A stretch of DNA of 64,000 bases from the NCBI RefSeq assembly GCF_006363815.1, contig NZ_RRYT01000020.1, positions 1-64,000 of the forward strand, written 5' to 3'. The stretch comes from Thermomonospora catenispora. GTDB lineage: Bacteria; Actinomycetota; Actinomycetes; Streptosporangiales; Streptosporangiaceae. A program made the translations under genes and the position numbers. This document shows, piece by piece, positions 12,909 to 14,663 of the stretch; positions within the stretch are counted from its first letter, which is position 1; each line of letters opens with the position of its first letter. The notes below the pieces were generated by a model. The model saw only the letters and a list, made by a program, of their open reading frames with translations. It did no database searches and was not told the DNA's origin.

Positions 12909-13038
12909 GGGTTCTCCTCGGTCGGAAGGGTCAGGGTTGTCGGCGCCCGATGGTATCGAGCCGCCGACCTCACCGGGGGCAGCCGGCTTCATGATCGGGT
13001 TCCTTTCCGCTGTGGGGAGCGGGCTCCGGGAAACACCA

Positions 13039-13064
13039 AGGCCCCGGGACCGCTCCCGGGGCCT
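13039..13064 (-). terminator. Attenuator terminator hairpin in the thrS leader
   Basis: On the minus strand, AGGCCCCGGGA-GCGG-TCCCGGGGCCT forms an 11-bp perfect stem with a 4-nt loop, followed by TTGGTGTTT. It starts 16 nt after the leader-peptide stop and lies 131 nt before thrS. Its left arm contains CCGGGAG (13059-13053), which can alternatively pair with CTCCCGG inside the leader peptide gene (13108-13102). Confidence 0.75.
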
Positions 13065-13080
13065 GGCCGAACGCTCGTGG

Positions 13081-13137
13081 TCAGCGCGTGAGCGAGCACC
13101 GCCGGGAGACGCCCGGCGTAGTCGTGGTCTCGGTCAT
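13081..13137 (-). CDS. Threonine leader peptide of thrS
   Basis: An 18-residue reading frame, [18 protein letters not shown], with five threonine codons among its first seven (ACC, ACC, ACG, ACT, ACG) and another near the end. It lies upstream of thrS and is followed by a terminator hairpin. Within it, GCCGGG (13117-13112) can pair with CCCGGC (13106-13101); that structure leaves the terminator free to form. A ribosome stalled at the threonine cluster would cover GCCGGG and free CTCCCGG to pair with the terminator's left arm. This is the classic logic of ribosome-mediated attenuation. The ribosome site (GAGAGC) is weak. Confidence 0.75.
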
Positions 13138-13199: not shown

Positions 13200-14663
13200 T
13201 CAGGCCCGCCGGGCCTTCGGCGTGCCGTACAGCTCGTCCATGTCCTCCAGCTCGCGGCCCTTGGTCTCGCGGACGGCCGTGCGGACGAACACGAACGCCA
13301 CGGCCGCCGAGAGCGTGTAGAAGCCGTAGGCGAAGCCCAGGCCGAGGTCGGCCATGGCCGGGAAGGTCATGGTGATCAGCCAGTTGGCGACCCACTGGGC
13401 GGAGGCGGCCACGGCCAGCGCGGCGGCCCGGATGAAGTTGTTGAACATCTCGCCCAGCAGCACCCACACCACCGGTCCCCAGGTGGCGCCGAAGGAGAAC
13501 ACGTACAGGTTGGCGGCGACCAGCGCGACCGGGCCGGCCACCGGGCCGAGCGCCGGCTCGCCGTCCACGACGGGCGCGGTGGCGAACGCGACGGTCATGA
13601 CGGCCAGCGTGACCGTCATCCCGGCGGCTCCGGCCAGCAGCAGCCGACGGCGGCCGATCCGGTCGATCAGCGCGATGGCGACCAGGGTGGTGACGATGTT
13701 GGTGATCGAGGTGATCACCGAGGTGAACATGGCGTCGCCCTCGCTGAAGCCGACCGCCTGCCACAGCGAGGAGGAGTAGTAGAAGATCACGTTGATGCCG
13801 ACGAACTGCTGGAAGACCGACAGCAGGATGCCCACCCACACGATCGGCAGCAGCCCCAGCCGGGGGCCGCGCAGGTCGCGCAGCTGGACCGGGCGGTCCT
13901 CGCGCAGTGTGCGGGCGATGTCGCGGATCCTGGCCTCCACGTCGGCGGCCGGCCCCATCACCCGCCGCAGCACCGGCCGGGCCTCCGCCTCGCGGTGCCG
14001 CTTGACCAGGAAACGCGGCGACTCGGGGATGCTCAGCGCGATCGCCCCGTAGATCACCGCGGGCAGCGCCGCGCTGGCGAACATCCACCGCCAGGCCGTG
14101 CCGCCCAGCGGGAACTCCCCGGACGCGCCGCCCTCGGAGATCCGGGCGATCAGGTAGTCGGCCAGCAGCGCGGCGAAGATGCCGGTGACGATGGCCAGCT
14201 GCTGCAGCGAGCCGAGCCGGCCGCGCAGACGCGCGGGCGCGATCTCGGCGATGTAGGCGGGTGCGATCACCGAGGCCGCGCCGATCGCCAGTCCGGCCGC
14301 CAGCCGCCAGGCCGTCAGGTCGTAGGGGGTGACGGCCAGCGCCGAGCCGATCGAGCTGATCACGAACAGCAGCGCGGCCACCAGCATCGTGCGGACCCGG
14401 CCGATCCGGTCGGCCAGCGGCCCGGCCAGCCATGCGCCCGCCGCACAGCCCAGCAGCGCCGAGGCCACCACCAGCCCGACGACGAACGAGCCGAGGCCGA
14501 ACTGCCGGCGCAGCGCGTCCACGGTCCCGTTGATCACGGAGGTGTCGTAGCCGAACAGGAATCCGCCCACCGCCGCCGCCGAGGCGATCATGGTGGCCAC
14601 GGCGGTGTTGTGCTCGTGGTGCGCAGGGGACGCGGGAGACGGTGTGCTGTCTTCGGCGGTCAT
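13200..14663 (-). CDS. MFS sugar porter
   Basis: A 487-aa transporter with 12 predicted helices. Sugar-porter signatures are present: GGFLFGYDTSVING in helix 1, a D-R-x-G-R motif (LADRIGRVR), PESPRFLVKR before the central loop, QQFVGINVIFYYS in helix 7 and DRIGRR in the second half, plus the terminal ETKGR. These are typical of proton-coupled hexose or pentose uptake; the substrate cannot be told from sequence. ATG 14663 is the most conservative start (MTAEDST). The gene stands divergent from the histidine kinase and just upstream of the thrS leader. Confidence 0.88.
   Translation of the reverse strand: MTAEDSTPSPASPAHHEHNTAVATMIASAAAVGGFLFGYDTSVINGTVDALRRQFGLGSFVVGLVVASALLGCAAGAWLAGPLADRIGRVRTMLVAALLFVISSIGSALAVTPYDLTAWRLAAGLAIGAASVIAPAYIAEIAPARLRGRLGSLQQLAIVTGIFAALLADYLIARISEGGASGEFPLGGTAWRWMFASAALPAVIYGAIALSIPESPRFLVKRHREAEARPVLRRVMGPAADVEARIRDIARTLREDRPVQLRDLRGPRLGLLPIVWVGILLSVFQQFVGINVIFYYSSSLWQAVGFSEGDAMFTSVITSITNIVTTLVAIALIDRIGRRRLLLAGAAGMTVTLAVMTVAFATAPVVDGEPALGPVAGPVALVAANLYVFSFGATWGPVVWVLLGEMFNNFIRAAALAVAASAQWVANWLITMTFPAMADLGLGFAYGFYTLSAAVAFVFVRTAVRETKGRELEDMDELYGTPKARRA

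Follow-up and report, generated by a model that had tools for sequence, protein, structure and literature searches.

The window, a 64,000-nt stretch of Thermomonospora catenispora DNA, contains a short threonine-rich frame and a hairpin between a transporter gene and the gene for threonyl-tRNA synthetase (ThrRS), raising the question of whether these elements constitute a device that senses charged threonine tRNA. A first-pass annotation of the same DNA had proposed a complete threonine attenuator at this site. Comparison with related genomes strengthens this proposal: the Thr codons and the pairings are retained, thrS lies downstream in every strong match that was opened, and two of the three helices display compensated pairing. 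Judged from these features, the region is very probably a ribosome-mediated transcription attenuator of the classical kind, sensing threonyl-tRNA, and thrS would most likely be switched on as charged threonine tRNA falls. The identity of the downstream gene was also borne out: its product matches TIGR00418 (threonine--tRNA ligase) with 654 bits, against a cut-off of 383.65, and comprises tRNA_SAD, core and anticodon-binding domains according to Pfam. The features of the locus are listed in Table 1.

Table 1. Features of the thrS upstream region in the window, in the direction of transcription.
Feature	Position	Strand	Remarks
P1, -10-like hexamer TATGAT	13171-13166	-	7 nt upstream of leader ATG 13158
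Leader gene (thrL-like)	13158-13081	-	ATG 13158 to TGA 13081; peptide of 25 residues
Fifth Thr codon	13134-13132	-	apart from the run of four
Thr codon run ACC ACG ACT ACG	13128-13117	-	proposed stall site
Region 1, GCCGGG	13117-13112	-	partner CCCGGC 13106-13101
Region 2, CTCCCGGC	13108-13101	-	partner region 1 or else region 3
Region 3, AGGCCCCGGGAG	13064-13053	-	terminator 5' arm and first loop base; its CCGGGAG is the partner of region 2
Region 4, TCCCGGGGCCT	13049-13039	-	terminator 3' arm
T-rich tail, weak, TGGTGTTT	13038-13031	-	directly after region 4
Region 5, CCGCTCCC	13022-13015	-	complementary to 13057-13050 (terminator apex)
ATG2 frame	12992-12909	-	purine-rich stretch before ATG2; open, in frame with thrS
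P2, promoter-like motif TCGATACCAT	12959-12950	-	-10 TACCAT 12955-12950; between terminator and thrS
thrS, full-length ThrRS	12908-10932	-	GTG start 12908; GAGGAG 12919-12914 upstream

The leader gene is longer than first described. The annotation had it begin at ATG 13137, from which five Thr codons in the first seven are indeed found; this codon is internal and has no TANNNT box, and the start is ATG 13158. Indeed, a TANNNT hexamer lies 6-7 nt upstream of a start codon of the leader frame in all 29 leaders examined, and the same box is found in 33/33 opened matches of a covariance model, seven of which are duplicate loci of the 29. Ahead of the Thr run the peptide varies between the five genomes of the genus, and the box stays 6-7 nt upstream of a start codon of the frame. 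Given this short distance, the P1 transcript is probably leaderless, starting at or next to the leader ATG, so that the leader would be read from this codon. In each of the 29 loci the site comprises two to four Thr codons, and a -10-like box precedes a start codon of the frame. The Thr run precedes thrS together with the same pairings in all five genomes of the genus; the comparison with relatives, suggested as a check by the annotation itself, found the Thr run and the three pairings preserved.

All three pairings drawn previously are present in the window: stem 1:2 between GCCGGG and CCCGGC, the antiterminator (2:3) between CTCCCGG at 13108-13102 and CCGGGAG at 13059-13053, and the terminator (3:4), an 11-bp hairpin formed by 13064-13054 and 13049-13039 with the loop GCGG. 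Since the regions overlap, these pairings are mutually exclusive. In an alignment of 53 leaders, all six pairs of stem 1:2 are formed in every sequence, and two of them, L160 and L204, which belong to different genera, carry a compensated change from G-C to A-U; the terminator has 97.1% of its cells paired and double changes in 7 of its 14 pairs. Jointly, stem 1:2 and the terminator reach 98.0% of paired cells versus 35.5-62.6% when slid, with none of 500 shuffles as high, a comparison that overstates independence because the sequences are related. The same picture was obtained with a 29-sequence alignment, where a longer terminator helix shows double changes in 10/17 pairs. The antiterminator is conserved in a different way: its five core pairs are formed in 53/53 leaders, its outer two pairs are broken in 16 and 20 of the sequences, and its values are matched by 13/500 shuffles with 53 sequences and by 187/500 with 29. 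Thus, the compensatory changes that had been named as support for the model occur in the terminator and, in 2/53 sequences, in stem 1:2, while the antiterminator exhibits little covariation. It can be argued that low covariation would be expected for helix 2:3, as region 2 must also fit region 1 and region 3 must also fit region 4. An inner arm of the antiterminator was considered as a consensus helix and discarded, since alifold on the 53 sequences retained only the five core pairs; among single folds of the 29 loci the inner arms differ in shape. In these 29 loci, region 3 follows the last Thr codon at a distance of 55-65 nt. For the 53-row alignment and a 52-row count used below, seven repeats were dropped among 30 loci around the top family model matches; the 29-row counts omit L160, which was found by the model only and reads TSTPD, and L024, with 289 upstream bases and no leader seen.

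All four bases occur at the wobble position of the Gly codon immediately outside region 1, and the wobbles of the ACG and CCG codons inside it are invariant; moreover, a family of sister leaders, described below, retains the 8-mer UCCCGGCG but in a different reading frame. From these two observations the constraint reads as acting on the RNA, and what is conserved looks like RNA rather than peptide, with a bias toward conservation of region 1 that derives from the choice of the loci, which were in part picked up with the covariance model or with a Thr-Pro-Gly pattern that left the wobbles free. Codon choice in the Thr run is also peculiar. ACG occupies three positions of the run in 29/29, 21/27 and 29/29 leaders, the last G of the run falling within region 1 and the first two codons outside it; 30 ORFs of the window with a gene-like composition use ACG for 24.7% and ACC for 72.7% of their Thr codons, and in 25 thrS genes ACG accounts for 2.1%. 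Binomial values for the ACG excess overstate its significance, as the sequences are related. One reading of this preference is a sensitive isoacceptor; another is the avoidance of extra C runs beside region 1. The leader of the Escherichia coli thr operon has eight ACC codons (PMC1183508), whereas the leaders of the window type have mostly ACG, and the reason for ACG at this site is amenable to experiment.

The computed stabilities of the isolated helices are -10.5 kcal/mol for 1:2, -28.1 for 2:3 with its arm and -25.1 for 3:4. When the footprint of a stalled ribosome is masked and the RNA ends before region 4, helix 2:3 is the minimum, at -25 to -29 kcal/mol; when region 4 is added under the same mask, the minimum is the terminator state, at -42 to -43 kcal/mol. 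Antitermination would consequently have to be kinetic, as is usual among such attenuators. The 11-bp terminator stem is followed merely by TGGTGTTT, and with such a weak U-tract efficient intrinsic termination is not assured. From the arrangement of the elements we infer two promoters, ribosome stalling, termination, the response to threonine and the ratio of P1 to P2, according to the following scheme. A leaderless transcript would start from P1 at or beside the leader AUG and be translated immediately. With ample threonyl-tRNA, the ribosome would pass the Thr run and proceed to the stop codon, stem 1:2 would form behind it, region 3 would join region 4, and transcription would end near 13031. 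With scarce threonyl-tRNA, the ribosome would halt on the Thr run, masking region 1; helix 2:3 could then form ahead of the synthesis of region 4, and the polymerase would continue into thrS. P2 would add a baseline of thrS transcription bypassing the terminator.

The putative P2 motif belongs to a recurrent type. Of 52 thrS-type loci, 45 have the motif TCGNTANNAT in the stretch that separates the terminator from thrS; six of the seven lacking it have at most 34 bases beyond the terminator. It resembles the Streptomyces motif TCGGTANNAT, which is located upstream of thrS in 9/10 regions from that genus, and it occurs without ATG2 in L027, indicating that it is not merely a part of the ATG2 frame. 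P2, a candidate promoter, would if active yield a thrS mRNA devoid of the attenuator and so limit the attenuator's share of thrS transcription; attenuation may perhaps cover only part of it. For the annotation, attenuation would be refuted by transcription that starts downstream of 13064: a promoter-like motif does occur there, and the objection, if P2 is active, applies to part of the transcription. As for ATG2, it stands behind a purine-rich stretch in 24/29 loci and its frame is open in all 24; in 20 of them it is in frame with thrS, and in four it stops shortly after the beginning of thrS. The in-frame stretches have a GC3 of 0.62, which is not gene-like, and a possible role of the frame is that of an N-terminal extension or a coupling frame.

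The distribution of the thrS-type leader was examined in 176 thrS upstream regions (76 from the loci and 100 more, a few of them short), 113 from the family of the source organism and 63 from outside it. A TTTPG-type frame or a close variant was recognized in 29 of the 176, besides L160, which was recovered by the model, all within the family; the leader was found in 0/63 regions from outside, which belong to those thrS genes listed for the class that match best, distant families being thinly covered. The covariance model was built from the 29 leaders, including that of the window, and in the window's genome it has a single good match, of 83.5 bits; the next-best is the same hairpin on the opposite strand (25.6 bits), followed by one at 21.1 bits. 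Among 341 genomes of the family, 91 matches score at least 65.9 bits, one per genome, and the next lower scores 54.2 bits. The 91 strong matches span 10 of 68 genera (g38 65, g53 8, g1 5, g17 3, g51 3, g49 2, g58 2, and one each in g2, g21 and g67), and the 33 that were opened all lie directly upstream of thrS. A sample of 394 genomes of the class gave four matches above 53 bits, all in the family; both searches employed stricter filters, with 10-12 candidates scored for each genome. A quick tree was built from 76 ThrRS proteins, and three changes are required to explain its 25 rows with a leader: 22 are contained in one group (support 93), L010 and L011 branch off the same unresolved node as this group, and L043 (g17) is at the base of the other group of the tree. 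L024, scored on the tree as lacking the leader with its 289 upstream bases, falls into the same group as these 22 rows. By eye, a tRNA-like sequence, GGGCGATTAGCTCAG..., was noticed upstream of thrS in L024, L095 and L111 (two Streptomyces and g27).

The lower matches of the class search revealed a second type of leader. At the 26 loci opened, scoring 42.0-52.2 bits, frames of the form M(K/Q/M)RAxxTTTPExVPAR* were found, which in 19 cases (L234-L257) precede a short ThrRS, about 410 residues long; no ThrRS was present within the stretch examined at the other seven, and for this reason the matches of this second tier were not taken as leaders throughout. One short ThrRS was inspected with Pfam and has the core and anticodon domains and no tRNA_SAD match. 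Among the best 30 paralogue loci in the family (L259-L288), 28 have the leader by pattern, L282 has a degenerate one and L270 none; all of the 28 and of the 19 sister leaders have a TANNNT box 6-7 nt ahead of their start codon. In the best 80 of 376 named relatives, the sister leader was detected by pattern in 74; of the six misses, two are at a contig end, L354 and L361 have a variant frame recognizable by eye, and L325 and L341 have none. L341, where no Thr leader frame was seen, still has the sister-type terminator hairpin upstream of the short ThrRS. The hosts include Streptomyces, Streptosporangium, Nonomuraea, Frankia, Saccharopolyspora, Nocardia and Kineosporia. The shared 8-mer reads VPAR in the sister leaders versus SRR in the thrS type, with L249 reading SRR. 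One internal TGA was noted in the short ThrRS matches of G037, G086, G164, G155, G151, G156, G158 (g34), G110, G506, G511 and G517, which may be the true stop codon, overrun by the match, or may mark a gene that is broken or recoded.

Region 5 distinguishes the two types further. In thrS-type loci at least seven bases complementary to the terminator apex occur in 14/52, and region 5 was consequently rejected as a general part of this device. In an alignment of 45 sister leaders, from which the duplicates L241 and L278 were omitted, its pairing with the apex (A2 columns 65-74 with 108-115) involves 97.2% of cells versus 38-59% when slid, and none of 500 shuffles is as high for paired cells or covariation score; double changes occur in two pairs only, a value equalled or exceeded in 143/500 shuffles. 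The ribosome site is an alternative partner of region 5 in these leaders, with 93.8% of cells paired and a covariation no better than that of shuffles (231/500). A possible second switch would thus consist of region 5 with either the apex or the ribosome site as its partner.

Several explanations other than attenuation were weighed. The hairpin might be a mere 3' terminator of the transporter gene, with the leader a chance frame; the gene ends at 13200 and the hairpin starts 136 nt beyond, a position compatible with such a role, but the order and spacing of Thr run, regions 1 and 2 and hairpin are kept across several genera, and the -10-like box precedes the leader start at every locus examined, making this explanation very improbable. 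It is extremely improbable that the element is a T-box or belongs to the other known RNA elements that regulate genes for aminoacyl-tRNA synthetases: ileS T-boxes are known in Actinobacteria (PMC1262725), but Rfam 15, searched with gathering thresholds over the whole window, returned one tRNA elsewhere and nothing at the leader, and such elements were discarded.

An action mainly on translation, in which the leader would free the ribosome site of ATG2 or thrS instead of affecting termination, would accord with the weak U-tract, with the frequent purine-rich stretch and ATG2, and with the capacity of the sister region 5 to pair with the ribosome site. However, thrS GTG lies 131 nt downstream of the hairpin end in the window, the sister ribosome-site pairing covaries like shuffled sequences, and the apex-complementary region 5 is confined to a minority of thrS-type loci; translational control as the main mode is therefore unlikely. 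There is a real but lesser chance that P2 drives most thrS transcription, leaving the P1 attenuator a minor role except in severe starvation, as the motif is widespread and similar to the one before Streptomyces thrS; against this, the motif is missing in 7/52 loci and the attenuator is clearly conserved. A dominant P2 is compatible with attenuation, the difference being a matter of proportions.

With a cut-off of E <= 1e-125, the short paralogue occurs in 124 of 338 family genomes, belonging to 28 genera, and no genus of the family sample has both paralogue and thrS leader. Genome gaps or the E cut-off may hide copies behind this exclusion, which may moreover stem from one or few events, since the leader-bearing rows cluster on the tree; in addition, both are absent from 30 of the 68 genera, and the two are not simple substitutes everywhere. 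It can be tentatively proposed that Actinobacteria solved inducible threonine charging in two ways from one leader type. Many lineages might have a leader-controlled short paralogue and a separately driven thrS, in which case the paralogue-type region 5, by covering the apex or the ribosome site, could couple termination to translation; the group of the window, which is without the paralogue, might instead rely on one thrS, with the leader on P1 and a constitutive P2, for both jobs. Bacillus subtilis thrZ is an inducible second ThrRS gene controlled by T-boxes. Another inducible second ThrRS gene is Anabaena T2 (PMC9437257). Their logic, that of an inducible ThrRS, is nearest to the short paralogue with its leader; unlike in thrZ and T2, the sensor would be a leader peptide, and in the group of the window the leader is located on full-length thrS.

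The attenuators of the trp, thr and leu operons of Enterobacteria, in which the regulatory codons adjoin region 1 and pairings 1:2, 2:3 and 3:4 exclude one another (PMC1183508), share codon placement and exclusive pairings with the device of the window. The latter differs in its predicted leaderless start, in the control of a synthetase gene and in the promoter-like motif after the terminator. Leader-peptide attenuators before synthetase genes have likewise been described for Streptomyces trpS and leuS, which concern other amino acids; according to its accessible text, the same 2005 survey saw no conservation of RNA structure ahead of threonine operons and lists no threonine element for Actinobacteria (PMC1262725). 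The present locus thus represents a well-bounded thrS attenuator in a group for which that survey had no such structures, and it is tied to a wider-spread sister leader before a short ThrRS paralogue. Two further questions become testable: how sensing is achieved by a leader that is itself leaderless, and whether an inducible paralogue can be replaced by a bypass promoter. Apart from S. lividans thrL, neither the thrS-type leader nor the sister family was found described in the literature searched, in which subscription journals were poorly covered. A comparative study from 2010 (Lopatovskaya and others) may be relevant here.

In Streptomyces lividans, thrL (MKRVRPFLETTPGFVPAR) was placed by RNA-seq, as a leaderless leader, upstream of a gene annotated thrS (SLIV_19410); it is a single case, with one hairpin and without a U-rich run, and its termination was called unclear (PMC8079986). 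Both this leader and, by prediction, that of the window are leaderless Thr leaders before a threonine-tRNA ligase gene, but the signature of the S. lividans peptide, MKRA..TTTPE.VPAR, is that of the short-paralogue type and not of the window's type, as judged from the leader peptide. TTPG was found in no frame of any of 10 regions upstream of the main Streptomyces thrS, which led to the rejection of an S. lividans-type leader at that gene; the signature was found before the paralogue instead. SCO3778 has been named threonyl tRNA synthetase (PMC10771440), and PMC7157823 mentions neither SCO3778 nor SCO1531 in its main text. TTTPG, present in the thrS leaders, also occurs in the metL peptide of S. 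lividans (PMC8079986, Table 4).
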